34,929 nucleotides of DNA, taken from a virus. Shown here piece after piece: positions 3,349-34,929 of this stretch; position 1 is the first letter of the stretch, and the number at the start of each line of letters is the position of its first letter. A program made the translations under genes and the position numbers. The notes beneath the pieces are model-generated. The model searched no databases. It worked only from the letters and a program-made list of their open reading frames with translations, and was not told where the DNA came from. The stretch spans positions 1 through 34,929 of IMG/VR virus record IMGVR_UViG_3300028025_000008; one strand, written 5' to 3'.

Positions 3349-4766
3349 CATTTGGTGAGTGGATGCCTGACCAATCAGGTATTTCTGGCTCGTTGACAGA
3401 CGCTAAAAACGTAGTGTCTCAAGCCATTGGGTATGGCCCATTCCCTACGCCAGTATCTTTATCAAGCGCAGCAGCAGAGAACTTAACTTCTTTGTATGCA
3501 GCTAAAGCCCCTGATGGCAATACAGTATTGTTTACGGCTGGCTTGTCAAAGATTTATACAGTTGGCGGTTCTGGAACACTTACGCAAGTAAATACAGGAT
3601 TGACAACAAACGCAAACGAAAGAATAAGATTTACTCAGTTTGGCAAGAGCGTCATTATTTGTAATAACGCTGATAAGCTAAAGTCTTGGGTGCTTGGTAC
3701 TTCTAGCACATTTACTGAAGTGGCAGCTACTGCGCCTATTGCTAAATACATTACTGTAGTGCGTGATTTTGTCGTGGTTGCAAATACGCTAGAAACGACA
3801 CAGCAACCATATAGAGTTCGTTGGTCAGCTATCAATGATGAGACTGATTGGGTAGAAAATGTAAACACTCAGTCTGACTATCAGGATATTCCTGATGGCG
3901 GTCAGATTGTAGGAATCCGTGGTGGTGAGTTTGGTCTAGTTTTGCTAGAGCGTTCTATTCACAGGATGACTTATGTGGGTACACCTTTTATATTCCAGTT
4001 TGACAACATCTCTAGGAATAAAGGTTGCGCTGTAGCTGGTTCTATTACTCAGTACCAAGGCATTACATTCTTCTTGTCAGACGATGGTTTCTATATGTGT
4101 GACGGACAGCAAGTTATTCCGATTGGGGCAGAGAAGGTTGATAGGTTCTTTTTAAGTGACGCAAGCGAGACAGACTATTCAACTATGTCTGCCGCTATTG
4201 ACCCTGTTCGCAAACTTGTAATCTGGAATTACAAAAGTGTAGATGCTGTTCGTAAACTGATGATTTACAACTTCCAGACTAAAAAATGGACTTATGGCGA
4301 TGCTAATACTGATTACTTGGGTGAAGCATCATCAGGCGCATTGACGCTTGAGGAACTAGATGCTATATCTGGTTCTATTGACGCTTTAACAACAAGTTTA
4401 GATTCTTTGTTATATATCGGTGGTAAGTATTTCTTAGGTGGAACTTACGGAACGAGGGTTTACTCCTTTACTGGCGCAAACCTTACAGGAAGCATTGCAA
4501 CTGGCGACATAGATTTAGGCGCAAACTCAGTAGTAACCCTAGCTAGACCTATTGTTGACAATGGCTCTGGCTCACTATCCATTGCTTCACGCACATTGCT
4601 AAACCAAAGTGTTACTTATGGTGGCTCAACTGCTGCTGACTCTGAGAACAGGGTTTCCTTGCGTAGTGCAGGTAGGTATCACAGATTAAAGTTAACACCT
4701 ACTGGTGCAGCTTGGAAGACTGCTGTGGCTGTGGATGTAGATGTAACTCCACAAGGGGTTCGCTGA
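3330..4766 (+). CDS. Tail nozzle / DNA stabilisation protein (P22 gp10-like)
   Basis: 478 aa. The sequence has repeated blade-like stretches ending in YKSVDAVRKLMIYNFQTKKW and the pattern RVRWSAINDETDW, which I associate with beta-propeller nozzle or stabilisation proteins (P22 gp10, T7 gp12-like) that plug the short tail and hold packaged DNA. AAGGAAG lies about eight bases before the ATG. An odd insertion at residues 338-362 (nt 4341-4415) carries the same leucine/aspartate motif found twice in the preceding gene, suggesting contact or shared ancestry. The stop shares its last base with the next ATG. Confidence 0.78.
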   Translation: MAQTRITFGEWMPDQSGISGSLTDAKNVVSQAIGYGPFPTPVSLSSAAAENLTSLYAAKAPDGNTVLFTAGLSKIYTVGGSGTLTQVNTGLTTNANERIRFTQFGKSVIICNNADKLKSWVLGTSSTFTEVAATAPIAKYITVVRDFVVVANTLETTQQPYRVRWSAINDETDWVENVNTQSDYQDIPDGGQIVGIRGGEFGLVLLERSIHRMTYVGTPFIFQFDNISRNKGCAVAGSITQYQGITFFLSDDGFYMCDGQQVIPIGAEKVDRFFLSDASETDYSTMSAAIDPVRKLVIWNYKSVDAVRKLMIYNFQTKKWTYGDANTDYLGEASSGALTLEELDAISGSIDALTTSLDSLLYIGGKYFLGGTYGTRVYSFTGANLTGSIATGDIDLGANSVVTLARPIVDNGSGSLSIASRTLLNQSVTYGGSTAADSENRVSLRSAGRYHRLKLTPTGAAWKTAVAVDVDVTPQGVR

Positions 4767-10531: not shown

Positions 10532-11401
10532 ATGTCCAAAAGAGTAGGTGGAATTCTAAGTGCTGGAAGAAACGGCATTAACTACCCTGTCACAGCGGTG
10601 GAATACTTATGTGTGGCTGGCGGTGGTGGGGGTGGTGCTTCTTTTGGTGGAGGTGGCGGTGCTGGTGGATTATTAACCGCTACTGGCTACGCTGTAACTA
10701 TTGGCTCAAGCATTACAGTTACTGTAGGTGCTGGTGGTGCGGGGTCAACATCTGCAAGCAATTTAGGTACTGCTGGAGTTAACTCAACTATTGTTGGTGG
10801 CACAACCATAACTAGTAATGGTGGTGGTGGTGGTCAGTCAAATACAAATCAGACTGTTGTTCAAGGCGGTAGTGGTGGCGGTAACTCAGGAACTGGCGGT
10901 GGTGGTACTACCGCTGGCACAGGCACATCGGGTCAAGGCAACAATGGTGGAGTGCATAGCACTTCCGCACCAGCATATGGTTCTGGTGGTGGTGGCGGTG
11001 CTGGCTCTGTTGGAGTCAATGGTACTTCAGCATATGGTGGTAGTGGTGGAACTGGATTAGCGTCTAGTATTTCTGGCGCACAAGTTTTTTATGCTGGCGG
11101 CGGTGGCGGTAATACTTATACAGCTACTGGGGTATTGGGTATTGGTGGCGCAGGAGGTGGTGGTGGAGCCGCTACATGGACAGGATTGACAGGTATTGCA
11201 AATACTGGCGGTGGTGGCGGTGGCGGTGGTGGAACTGATGCAAATATAGCGGCAGGTGGTGCTGGCGGCTCTGGCATCGTAGTCATCCGCTACCCATCTT
11301 ACTTAGCCCCTGCTACATCAACAACTGGCTCACCAGAAACTTATGTCACAGGCTTTTGGCGTGTGTACAGATTCGTTGCTTCTGGCACGATTACTTTCTA
11401 A
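10532..11401 (+). CDS. Glycine-rich tail adhesin, type A copy 1
   Basis: 289 aa. A short N-terminal tag (SKRVGGILSAGRNG) leads to VEYLCVAGG, then glycine runs separated by strands (SITVTVGAGGAG), closing with GSGIVVIRYPS and a tail ending in SGTITF. Such polyglycine domains are known from receptor-binding adhesins, for example gp38 of T-even and S16-like phages, where polyglycine II helices form the body and variable loops bind the host surface. Receptor recognition is inferred from this. Three paralogues follow. AAGG precedes the ATG. Confidence 0.82.
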   Translation: MSKRVGGILSAGRNGINYPVTAVEYLCVAGGGGGGASFGGGGGAGGLLTATGYAVTIGSSITVTVGAGGAGSTSASNLGTAGVNSTIVGGTTITSNGGGGGQSNTNQTVVQGGSGGGNSGTGGGGTTAGTGTSGQGNNGGVHSTSAPAYGSGGGGGAGSVGVNGTSAYGGSGGTGLASSISGAQVFYAGGGGGNTYTATGVLGIGGAGGGGGAATWTGLTGIANTGGGGGGGGGTDANIAAGGAGGSGIVVIRYPSYLAPATSTTGSPETYVTGFWRVYRFVASGTITF

Positions 11402-11409
11402 GGGTAGAT

Positions 11410-12255
11410 ATGGCTACAGGTTTATTTACTCTTAAACAAGTTAACCAAGCACTTGCACAAAAGGCATGGACAGGCCCACAGAAAACTGGTTGGGTTGAGT
11501 ACCTTGTTGTTGCGGGTGGTGGTGGTGGTGGCGGTGCGGCTGGTGGTGGAGGTGCTGGTGGTTTATTAACTGGCATATTGCCTGTAGTTACTGGTTCATC
11601 TATTACTGCTACTGTAGGCGGTGGTGGTGTGGGAGATGCTAACGGGGTTAATTCAGTATTTAGTTCTATTTCTTCCACAGGTGGTGGAAAAGGCTCACGA
11701 TACGACACAAATACTGCGGGTAGTGGCGGTTCTGGCGGGGGCGGTGCAGGAATGGGCGGTTCTTCGGGAGGACAAGGTACAGCCAATCAAGGTAATGCAG
11801 GCGGTACTGGTTTTATAAGTGGAAGTGTTTTTTCTTCTGCTGGCGGTGGTGGAGCTGGAACTATTGGTTTCACTGCATTTTCTGGCGTTTGCGGAAATGG
11901 CGGTGCTGGTATAGCAAGTGCTATAACAGGAACTGTTACTACTTATGCTGGCGGTGGCGGTGGCGGTGGAAGTTCTGGATTTGCTGGGGGTGTTGGTGGT
12001 GTAGGGGGAGGCGGTTCTGGTGGGTTTGGTGGAACAAGTAATGGCACAGCAGGAACTGCAAACACAGGTGGTGGTGGTGGCGGTGGAGGTGCTGGTGGAG
12101 GCGTAGGCACAGGTGGCACAGGCGGCTCTGGCATTGTCATCATTCGCTACCCAAGCACATTTGCTGATGCTGCAAGCGTAACTAACGGCACAAAGACAAC
12201 TGCTAACGGCTACACAATTTACACATTCTTGACTAGCGGAAGTATCACATTTTGA
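11410..12255 (+). CDS. Glycine-rich tail adhesin, type B copy 1
   Basis: 281 aa from the ATG with AAGGG upstream. A start at 11356 would run back into the previous gene. Its N-terminus (LFTLKQVNQALAQKAWTG) differs from type A and matches the gene at 14621. The polyglycine body, the GSGIVIIRYPS signature and the SGSITF end are shared by all four copies. It is the last rightward gene before the leftward endonuclease, with only two bases between the stops. Confidence 0.82.
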   Translation: MATGLFTLKQVNQALAQKAWTGPQKTGWVEYLVVAGGGGGGGAAGGGGAGGLLTGILPVVTGSSITATVGGGGVGDANGVNSVFSSISSTGGGKGSRYDTNTAGSGGSGGGGAGMGGSSGGQGTANQGNAGGTGFISGSVFSSAGGGGAGTIGFTAFSGVCGNGGAGIASAITGTVTTYAGGGGGGGSSGFAGGVGGVGGGGSGGFGGTSNGTAGTANTGGGGGGGGAGGGVGTGGTGGSGIVIIRYPSTFADAASVTNGTKTTANGYTIYTFLTSGSITF

Positions 12256-12852: not shown

Positions 12853-13716
12853 ATGTCTAATTTATTAGGTGGATATTTGTCGGCAACATTTAACCCTTTA
12901 TCTGGTGCGCCTACTGCTGTTGAATATCTAGTGGTCGCTGGTGGGGGTGGGGGTGGTGGTCAGGCCAATAATAATCAAATGGGTGGTGGTGGAGGTGCTG
13001 GTGGATTACAACAAGCAGCGGCCTTTGCTGTTTCTACAGGCTCGGCTATAACAGTAACTGTTGGTGCGGGTGGTGCGGGTGGCTCTAATGCAGCTGGCAC
13101 AGTAGGAGTAAATTCTGTATTTGGCGGTGTTACTGCAAGTAGCGGTGGCGGTGCTGGTGGTAGAGGTAGTGTTGGTGGAAATGGTGGCTCTGGTGGCGGT
13201 GGTAGTACAGGGTCATTTGCTGGTGGCTCTGGAACGTCTGCACAAGGCTTTGATGGTGGCTCTGGAAACGCTGCGGCAACTACTACTTCCGCTTCTGGTG
13301 GCGGTGGTGGAAGTGGCTCTATTGGCTTAAATGCGTCAAGTGCTGGAATAGGTGGTTCTGGTGGTGCTGGTACTGTGTCTACTATTACAGGCGCAAGAGT
13401 TTTTTACGCTGGCGGTGGTGGCGGTGCTGGCTACGCTGGTCAAGGATTAGGCGTAGCTGGTGGTGGGTCTGGGTCGGTTGCTGGTGGAGTAGCGGGAGCA
13501 GCAACAGCCAATAGTGGTTCTGGTGGTGGTGCTGGCGGGTATTCAAGTGCCATAAACATTGCTACTGATGGTGGTAATGGAGGCTCTGGCATCGTGATTA
13601 TTCGTTACCCTGCATCACAATCAGCACCAACTGCAACAACTGGTTCACCACAAATCAACTACGCTGATGGCTACCAAATCTACACTTGGACATCATCTGG
13701 AACTGTGACATTCTGA
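12853..13716 (+). CDS. Glycine-rich tail adhesin, type A copy 2
   Basis: 287 aa. The N-terminus (SNLLGGYLSATFNPLSG, then TAVEYLVVAGG) parallels the gene at 10532, and the polyglycine body, GSGIVIIRYPA and SGTVTF end are the shared adhesin frame. The glycine-run lengths and loop residues differ from copy 1, as expected of diverging receptor-binding loops. GAGG lies eight bases before the start. Its TGA overlaps the ATG of the next endonuclease. Confidence 0.82.
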   Translation: MSNLLGGYLSATFNPLSGAPTAVEYLVVAGGGGGGGQANNNQMGGGGGAGGLQQAAAFAVSTGSAITVTVGAGGAGGSNAAGTVGVNSVFGGVTASSGGGAGGRGSVGGNGGSGGGGSTGSFAGGSGTSAQGFDGGSGNAAATTTSASGGGGGSGSIGLNASSAGIGGSGGAGTVSTITGARVFYAGGGGGAGYAGQGLGVAGGGSGSVAGGVAGAATANSGSGGGAGGYSSAINIATDGGNGGSGIVIIRYPASQSAPTATTGSPQINYADGYQIYTWTSSGTVTF

Positions 13717-14620: not shown

Positions 14621-15499
14621 GTGGCTCAATATAGCGGCATATTTACGCTGTCTCAGGCAAGCCAAGCCATTAAGGACAACAACTGGACAGGACTGTTTCC
14701 ACAGAATGTTGAATTCTTGGTGGTAGCTGGTGGTGCGGGTGGTGGAAACAATCTGGCTGGTGGTGGCGGTGCTGGCGGTTTGCTTGCAGGATTTTCTGGC
14801 ATAACAACAGGCTCTCAACTTTGGGTGACTGTTGGCGGTGGCGGTGCTGGTTCTACAAGTTCATCTTCTGCTGGAACAAGCGGTGGTGCTTCAGTTTTAC
14901 TGGCTACATCATCAGCTGCAACAACTGGAAACTTTGTTGCTAGTGGAGGTGGTGGAGGTGGAAGTAATAACTCAACTTCTGGTGTTTCTGGCGGCTCTGG
15001 TGGCGGTGCTTCACAATCTACAGTTGTTGGTTCTGGAACATCGGGACAAGGTAATGCTGGCGGTAGTGGTGCAACTGGAGTTGCTTATGGCGGTGGTGGT
15101 GGTGGTGGTGCAGGAACTATTGGTCTAAATGGCGTAACAGGCTCTAGTGCTGGCAATGGCGGTGCAGGGATTGCTTCTTCTATTTCTGGCTCTGTTGTTA
15201 CTTATGCTGGTGGCGGTGGTGGAGGGATACTTTCTGGAACTTCTGGCACAGGTGGTGTAGGTGGTGGTGGTGCGGGTGGTTCTGTTGCAGTAGGCGCAAA
15301 CGGCACAGCTAATACAGGCGGTGGTGGCGGTGGTGGTGCTTCTGGTTTTAATGGCGGCACAGGCGGTAGCGGTATCGTCATCCTCCGCTATCCAGACACA
15401 TTCATAGCCGCTACAAGCACAACAGGTTCACCAACAATCACTGTGGCTGGTGGGTTTAGAGTTTATAAATTCACGGCATCTGGCTCAATAACTTTCTGA
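14621..15499 (+). CDS. Glycine-rich tail adhesin, type B copy 2
   Basis: 292 aa from a GTG start with AAGGAG upstream. Its N-terminus (GIFTLSQASQAIKDNNWTG) matches the type B gene at 11410: both carry TL-x-Q-x-x-Q-A and an N/A-W-T-G end. The polyglycine core with GSGIVILRYPD and the SGSITF end is shared by all copies. It is the last receptor-region gene before lysis. Confidence 0.82.
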   Translation: MAQYSGIFTLSQASQAIKDNNWTGLFPQNVEFLVVAGGAGGGNNLAGGGGAGGLLAGFSGITTGSQLWVTVGGGGAGSTSSSSAGTSGGASVLLATSSAATTGNFVASGGGGGGSNNSTSGVSGGSGGGASQSTVVGSGTSGQGNAGGSGATGVAYGGGGGGGAGTIGLNGVTGSSAGNGGAGIASSISGSVVTYAGGGGGGILSGTSGTGGVGGGGAGGSVAVGANGTANTGGGGGGGASGFNGGTGGSGIVILRYPDTFIAATSTTGSPTITVAGGFRVYKFTASGSITF

Positions 15500-21465: not shown

Positions 21466-21618
21466 ATGGACAAACAAACCGCTATCACACTTGCTGGCTC
21501 ACAGAGTGAGCTTGCTAGAATCCTTGGCATAACTAGGGCGGCTGTATTTCTCTGGAAAAACATCCCTAAACTACGCATTTATCAACTAAAAGAACTTAGA
21601 CCAGAGTGGTTCAAATGA
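21466..21618 (+). CDS. cro: Cro-like transcriptional repressor
   Basis: 50 aa. It matches the layout of P22-type Cro/YdaS proteins: a short leader with DKQTAITLAGS, a helix-turn-helix at residues 13-31 (QSELARILGITRAAVFLWK), then IPKLRIYQLKELRPEWF. It should bind the palindrome just upstream and balance the two divergent early promoters. No CI-type repressor gene faces it, unlike in lambdoid phages. The TGA overlaps the next ATG. No Shine-Dalgarno site is seen, and the promoter position suggests a near-leaderless message. Confidence 0.82.
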   Translation: MDKQTAITLAGSQSELARILGITRAAVFLWKNIPKLRIYQLKELRPEWFK

Positions 21619-21983
21619 CACAAGAAGCAGTTATCAGAGCATTACAGAACGGCCCACTTACATCCTACCAACTAGAGGATTTAACAGGCATACCAAGATT
21701 GTCCATTGCAGCTTGTTGCACCAAGATGAGTTACAAGAAGAAATTAACAATTGGAAAAATTAAAATGGGGCGGTCATGGGTTTCTCAGTACACCCTTGCA
21801 CCACACATGATTGAGGCTCAAAAGGCTGCCAATGATGAGCCTTACGACAAGCTAAACCCTTTTGACATTCGCAATGCCAGAGGTATCTTTTCTAAGGCTG
21901 AATATGCGGTAATGAACGCACAGGCTAAAAGACTGCTTGGTAAATCATTTTCAGAAGATATTACAAACAACCAGTTTATTTGA
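21615..21983 (+). CDS. Winged-helix protein of unknown function
   Basis: 122 aa from the ATG overlapping the Cro stop. Residues 1-60 read as a winged helix (TQEAVIRALQNGPLTSYQLE, then PRLSIAACCTKM as recognition helix and IKMGRSWVSQYTL as wing). The C-terminal half has a helical region with YDKLNPFDIRNARGIF. Position between cro and the initiator suggests a CII-like or replication-regulatory role, but it is not homologous by eye to CII. Confidence 0.7.
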   Translation: MTQEAVIRALQNGPLTSYQLEDLTGIPRLSIAACCTKMSYKKKLTIGKIKMGRSWVSQYTLAPHMIEAQKAANDEPYDKLNPFDIRNARGIFSKAEYAVMNAQAKRLLGKSFSEDITNNQFI

Positions 21984-21989
21984 TACAAT
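21981..21989 (+). promoter_or_regulatory. Promoter for leader RNA / initiator
   Basis: TGATACAAT matches the extended -10 form with one mismatch, overlapping the end of the previous gene. Transcription from about 21996 would produce the structured RNA described next. Confidence 0.5.
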
Positions 21990-21995
21990 GTTTTG

Positions 21996-22073
21996 AAACA
22001 CGGCTAGGTGCGAAGTCATGAGCGCACCGAAAAGAGAAGTCTCCCCTCCTGCCGCAGTTTCTTTTTTGGGAGA
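21996..22073 (+). ncRNA. C4-like structured/antisense RNA candidate
   Basis: About 78 bases. The first hairpin has arms GGTGCG (22007-22012) and CGCACC (22023-22028), perfect, with a 10-base loop. It is followed by an unpaired CTCCCCTCCTGCCGCAG stretch, a run of six T (22062-22067), and GGGAGA (22068-22073), which pairs with TCTCCC (22040-22045). A hairpin followed by a C/T-rich region complementary to ribosome sites, then a T-run, is what I recall of phage C4 antisense RNAs (P1/P7, Rfam C4). It may act in trans on a GGAGG-type site or in cis as a leader for the initiator. Bounds are approximate. Confidence 0.5.
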
Positions 22074-22092
22074 ATTGGAACAAGAGACAACT

Positions 22093-24541: not shown

Positions 24542-24793
24542 ATGAAATACGAATTTGACACAACAACTGGTGAAGGCTCTGTAATCGTTACTGTCGTTAT
24601 GGAATACGAGCGTGACGAAGAAGGCACTTACAACGAGAACATTGATGAAGTCTGGTTTGAGGGGCGCAATGTCATGGGCATCTTTACTGACCAGCAGTTT
24701 AAAGAATTAGAGATTGAGGGCTGTATGCGTCTTTCTAAGCACATCTTGGAGGAAGCTGACCATGCAAAAATCATGGCTTACGAGGCTGAGTAA
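24542..24793 (+). CDS. Small acidic protein of unknown function
   Basis: 83 aa, strongly acidic, starting KYEFDTTTGEGSVIVTVVME, with a beta N-terminal half and helical C-terminal half (QFKELEIEGCMRLSKHILEE). AAGGA lies eight bases before the ATG. Acidity and early expression would fit a DNA mimic or host-enzyme inhibitor, but there is no direct evidence. The next gene starts inside it. Confidence 0.68.
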   Translation: MKYEFDTTTGEGSVIVTVVMEYERDEEGTYNENIDEVWFEGRNVMGIFTDQQFKELEIEGCMRLSKHILEEADHAKIMAYEAE

Positions 24794-34802: not shown

Positions 34803-34929
34803 TTTTGGAGTATTAAATTATGGCTACCTATCAAACATATACCGCAATCGGTATGAGAGAAGACCTTTCGGATGTTATCTACTCGATTTCACCAACAGAT
34901 GTTCCATTTATGTCTTCCATTGGCAAGAC
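34803..34929. repeat. Terminal direct repeat, right copy (start of capsid gene again)
   Basis: Identical to bases 1-127. It contains the ribosome site and ATG (34820) of the capsid gene and stops in codon 37, so the second capsid start is not a separate gene. Confidence 0.95.

Follow-up and report, generated by a model that had tools for sequence, protein, structure and literature searches.

One described system that resembles the locus presented here is the C4 antisense RNA of P1-like phages, which RNase P releases from a longer transcript and which acts on its target mRNAs after processing; its b' loop occludes ribosome sites and its a' loop gives specificity (PMC5320573). The database record of P1 annotates C4 binding sites in the icd-ant mRNA, the P3 loop of P1 C4, TCACTAAC, is complementary to the annotated site b2 before icd, and the Rfam covariance model of C4 (RF01695) scores the copies of P1, P4 and N15 at 68.8-78.8 bits. 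Plasmids offer a second point of reference in CopA and Inc RNA, antisense RNAs controlling replication initiators, which limit initiator synthesis through its leader. A third is the Rfam family int-alpA (RF02996), whose name implies a place between the integrase and alpA genes. The literature searched yielded no paper on the function of int-alpA and does not include the family's presumed source paper; an antisense function may have been proposed for these RNAs earlier. In a review of the small RNAs of phages from 2025 (PMC12197685), neither 'replication initiat' nor 'int-alpA' occurs in any passage.

The element considered here lies in a freshwater phage contig of 34,929 nt (IMG/VR record IMGVR_UViG_3300028025_000008), the whole of which is called the window below, and it is quite likely, judging from its sequence and that of its relatives, a short RNA gene that limits translation of the next gene, here a replication initiator. 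Because the contig carries an exact direct terminal repeat of 127 nt (1-127 and 34803-34929), this terminally redundant sequence is probably a complete genome; its portal and head genes are podovirus-like. The window has no match to PF00589 or PF00239, and a search for tyrosine integrase and resolvase domains found none in it or in 13 related contigs, which may be fragments, so a role of the RNA module in lysogeny is not indicated, though lysogeny of a non-integrating or other kind is conceivable. Elsewhere in the window, four ORFs match phrog_2295 (10532-11401, 11356-12255, 12853-13716 and 14621-15499); they are rich in Gly-coding repeats and are apparently tandem paralogues in the tail-fibre region. 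The features of the locus are as follows.

21606-21983, plus strand: upstream ORF of 125 aa, whose stop codon TGA overlaps the extended -10
21981-21989, plus strand: extended -10 promoter, TG-A-TACAAT, seen in the sequence, with a predicted start at about 21994-21996
21995-22067, plus strand: RNA element, between the 125-aa ORF and the replication initiator gene
21995-22004, plus strand: 5' strand of the closing helix P1, GAAAC.CGGC, pairing with 22051-22061
22007-22028, plus strand: hairpin P2, GGTGCG/CGCACC plus a closing G-C, with the apical loop AAGTCATGAG containing the palindrome TCATGA
22029-22034, plus strand: joining segment GAAAAG, (nearly) invariant in alignment A1, its last G being the first base of P3
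22034-22048, plus strand: hairpin P3, with a GAG/CTC stem and the C/T-rich loop AAGTCTCCC (22037-22045), the proposed antisense sequence
22051-22061, plus strand: 3' strand of P1, GCCG..GTTTC, its pairing supported by alignments A1 and A2
22062-22067, plus strand: T-run directly after P1, likely a weak intrinsic terminator of a predicted RNA of about 73 nt
22068-22073, plus strand: target site a, GGGAGA, able to form 6 bp with the P3 loop
22084-22088, plus strand: target site b, GAGAC, able to form 5 bp with the P3 loop; it lies in the Shine-Dalgarno region and ends 4 nt ahead of the start codon
22093-22857, plus strand: replication initiator of 254 aa, its start codon being ATG 22093 and not that at 22018

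The initiator matches phrog_5810 (E 1.4e-19) and the O-like phrog_678 (E 8.1e-15) in a profile scan that used the translation from 22018. For the 125-aa ORF, profile scans gave no confident family, the weak best hint being a Ren-like match (E 0.011). The fold of 21995-22067 is a three-way junction in which P1 encloses the hairpins P2 and P3, the extended -10 ending 5 nt 5' of P1. Every element described in the original prediction is present, namely the extended -10, a perfect hairpin (GGTGCG...CGCACC, within P2), a C/T-rich loop, a T-run and a further stem; the last exists, but we take it for the 3' half of P1 rather than for a separate second stem.

An Rfam scan at the gathering threshold returned nothing for the element. 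The original prediction had also called the element C4-like and proposed running the C4 model: its junction topology and the match between P3 loop and ribosome site bear this out, but membership of Rfam C4 does not hold, as the model gives no match at E values up to 10. Against int-alpA, cmscan gives 29 bits (E 2.8e-4), below the gathering threshold of 35.8, in a full-length match (model 1-71) in which two P3 pairs and two others are non-standard in Rfam's alignment. The two share the blocks CUAG, GAAAA and CUG in that order and the P1/P2/P3 junction, and their families share overlapping P2 loop motifs (TGATC, GTAGCT). They differ in that the family of the window element has an outer GAAAC/GTTTC stem and a P3 of 3 bp and usually precedes phage replication initiators; the window element itself precedes an initiator, with no integrase match, rather than lying where the name int-alpA implies. 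In 250 Burkholderiales genomes our model R1 finds four places, whereas RF02996 finds 58 genomes, and the two models therefore overlap little. On these sequence comparisons the element belongs with int-alpA by descent, as a divergent relative below the curated threshold, and the best reading is that it would work like P1 C4 without being a member of Rfam C4, standing closer to int-alpA.

The folding of a single sequence is uninformative here: the folding energy of the 106-nt sequence is not unusual (z 0.41), and for the 74-nt element z is -1.32, with 21 of 200 shuffles equally stable. The comparative evidence for the structure, by contrast, is far beyond chance. At least 120 IMG/VR stretches match a pattern of the three conserved blocks, and the element is present beside many relatives of the initiator. 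In A1, an alignment of 42 sequences, pairs are standard in 95.3% of cells; in A2, which comprises 101 copies fitted to R1 and hence biased towards that model, 97.2% are standard, both sides have changed in 251 cells against 60.6 in shuffles, and covariation is 0.443 against at most 0.078 with slid partners. Within A2, the two helices of P1 (helices 1 and 2) are paired in 92.7% and 99.7% of cells with both-side changes in 8 of 9 pairs, P2 (helix 3) in 97.8% with such changes in all 6 pairs, and P3 (helix 4) in 100%. The covarying pairs that the original prediction had proposed to look for in relatives thus exist, and the choice it had set beforehand, with absent covariation or protein-level conservation on the opposing side, came out for RNA.

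The same comparison bears on the suggestion that the stretch encodes the N-terminus of the initiator from 22018. In the window and its closest relatives the frame indeed runs open between ATG 22018 and ATG 22093; among copies whose protein starts with MPTRYLK, however, L002 and L007 have it closed shortly before the protein start, while L006, L008 and L092 have it open but lack an ATG in the listed stretch. With sequence changes that preserve base pairs, this reading is hardly credible, and a start of the initiator at 22018 was rejected, the conserved protein starting at ATG 22093. G-U cells are present in several pairs of A2, which speaks against a structure formed in single-stranded DNA, for example as part of a replication origin. 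Such an element would fit a place adjoining the initiator gene, but the structure also stands before HNH and GIY-YIG genes and varied bacterial genes, and the -10 box and the complementarity to ribosome sites point to RNA, leaving the DNA reading extremely unlikely.

The promoter box is likewise established by comparison. Among 98 distinct upstream sequences, a TAnAAT box precedes the element (T conserved in 81%, A in 85% and T in 86%) and most often ends 5 nt before GAAAC, a -35 match upstream of the element being no better than chance. T occupies the first three positions after P1 in 86-91% of copies. Since the P3 stem has only 3 bp and the T-run only 3-6 nt, termination at P1 and the T-run may be weak. 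The module is dispensable, as 12 database phages with related initiators have no match to R1; a DNA-level search of database phages for the element gave no match.

What ties the RNA to the following gene is the co-variation of loop and target. Between the T-run and the next gene's start codon lie two tandem sites to which the P3 loop is complementary, and across 60 loop types the loop and this leader are both strongly variable and change together. For the 60 distinct loops, which are related by descent and so not fully independent, the mean duplex energy with the native leader is -10.00 kcal/mol, against -6.29 +/- 0.24 with re-dealt leaders (0 of 5000 permutations as low) and -6.19 +/- 0.24 kcal/mol for shuffled loops; a few loops had been mis-parsed by the pattern, and these tests covered loops of up to 13 nt. 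Two non-overlapping sites of at least 4 bp are found for 53 of the 60 loops (null 20 +/- 3.5, at most 29 in 200 permutations). The commonest spacing between the two is 4-7 nt, and the downstream site lies close to the start codon. There is no excess complementarity of P3 loops to the coding region or to three upstream stretches to -200.

Control of the initiator itself, one of the possibilities first raised, is supported by this co-variation at its leader. The other was that the RNA silences a GGAGG-led gene, such as that at 24762 or 9654; on this reading it would regulate genes with such sites in trans, and its match to the initiator leader would be fortuitous. A C-rich loop could pair with many Shine-Dalgarno sequences, and by duplex energy the initiator ranks 18th among 899 candidate start sites in the window, several sites being better; since this ranking does not single out the initiator, the choice of target rests on co-variation. 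Neither 24762 nor 9654 is at the top of the ranking, and native pairs are about 15 standard deviations better than re-dealt leaders, although these bear Shine-Dalgarno sequences too. A match to the phage's own leader is also seen for loops without anti-Shine-Dalgarno character: the loop TATCTGGTACA of L134 matches GTACCA and ACCAGA, and the loop ACTCATCATT of the second copy in L116 matches TGATGA (read by eye). In L002, whose initiator is 88% identical to that of the window, the loop is TTCCCACTTTCT and the sites AAGTGG..AAAGTGG, loop and sites having switched together. Targets confined to other genes are accordingly a very unlikely alternative.

Co-variation reads alike for pairing in trans and for a cis pseudoknot, and for repression and activation. 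A leader acting only in cis, in which the P3 loop and sites a and b form a pseudoknot on the same messenger that sets initiator translation, would suit the arrangement of element and sites on one strand within about 50 nt in the copies analysed, and the short T-run makes read-through likely. We nevertheless hold it to be rather unlikely: a pseudoknot needs fewer than two near-redundant sites, and P1 C4, with the same layout, acts on target mRNAs after processing (PMC5320573). A discrete RNA is favoured by the layout, which is that of an RNA gene: the spacing between the -10 box and the first base of P1 is fixed, and P1 is directly followed by a T-run.

Set beside C4 of P1 and P7, this putative RNA gene has in common a P1 helix around two hairpins, a P3 loop matching the ribosome-binding region of the next gene, and target sites that follow closely on the strand of the RNA itself. 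The differences are several. The window element uses one loop for both sites, whereas C4 has separate a' and b' segments; an a'-type segment between P3 and P1 is absent in the window's family, where the joint between them (CCTGCC) is nearly invariant in A1 and therefore cannot carry variable specificity. P1 has the upstream sites a1 and b1, without counterpart in the excess complementarity of the window's family as far as -200; C4 is matured by RNase P, whereas here the -10 box abuts the RNA; and C4 represses antirepressor synthesis, whereas the gene after the window element is an initiator. CopA and Inc RNA share the limit on initiator synthesis, but they are transcribed from the opposite strand, while the window RNA and its target lie on the same strand with short matches only.

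In most of the compared stretches, too, a replication initiator comes after the RNA, either lambda-O-like or DUF1376, and the PHROG matches of others are to replication initiation or primosomal families. HNH or GIY-YIG nuclease genes follow the RNA in L083, L094, L135 and L108, and copies in bacterial genomes precede varied genes. L116 has two copies whose loops differ, and inspection by eye shows a match of each loop to the leader beside it; the second, short copy (3609-3678, plus strand; 37.3 bits with R1) is followed by a gene that, again by eye, looks like an HNH-type endonuclease.

The proposed sequence of events is as follows. Transcription from the -10 box at 21984 would begin where the 5' strand of P1 does and end, at least in part, at P1 and the T-run; the resulting RNA would have about 73 nt. 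The junction would present the P3 loop for pairing with sites a (22068-22073) and b (22084-22088) in the initiator leader, where pairing at b would cover the Shine-Dalgarno region and pairing at a would add specificity. We infer repression because of the position of site b and the analogy with C4; action in trans is possible, as described for C4, as is action in cis on a read-through messenger. The consequence would be a delay or a ceiling in initiator synthesis, and mutual repression between genomes of one loop and site type. Since loop and sites have changed together, the RNA is in all probability a brake that the phage has built into its own DNA replication.

The design extends to int-alpA, whose chromosomal copies have the loop and two sites before a gene. 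An independent set of 27 distinct loops was drawn from Burkholderiales copies and copies from the order of L280's genome. Once the latter copies were added, the leader stretch shortened and the P3 search made stricter, the native mean duplex energy became clearly lower, at -8.79 kcal/mol against -7.65 +/- 0.30 with re-dealt leaders (3 of 10000) and -5.89 +/- 0.35 with shuffled loops, whereas for the Burkholderiales loops alone the permutation is weak (301 of 5000) because the loops are alike. Two sites are found for 25 of the 27 loops; shuffled loops average 7.5, and re-dealt leaders reach 21.5 since these loops resemble one another. It would follow that antisense regulation of the next gene is what int-alpA RNAs generally do, which gives them a concrete proposed function.

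It is possible, if doubtful, that the types of loop and sites define replication-compatibility groups among phages without a recognised integrase and that int-alpA forms a second C4-like family with exchangeable targets. If so, the RNA would block initiator translation of its own genome and of an entering genome of the same type, a sequence-coded control of superinfection or copy number like plasmid incompatibility. The main reading, for its part, would carry the C4 principle over from antirepressors to the initiators of replication, and this in contigs without an integrase match; the variable pairs of loop and sites are natural compensatory mutants for antisense specificity.

The P2 loop gives no signal of complementarity to the leader. 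P2 loops fall into few types, although the P2 stem has 89 distinct versions. A T-N-R sequence (U-turn-like UNR) occurs in 25 of 25 distinct P2 loops, a figure given without a null comparison, and 12 of the 25 contain a palindrome of at least 6 nt (shuffled mean 2.5, maximum 8 in 500 shuffles), which could permit loop-loop dimers.
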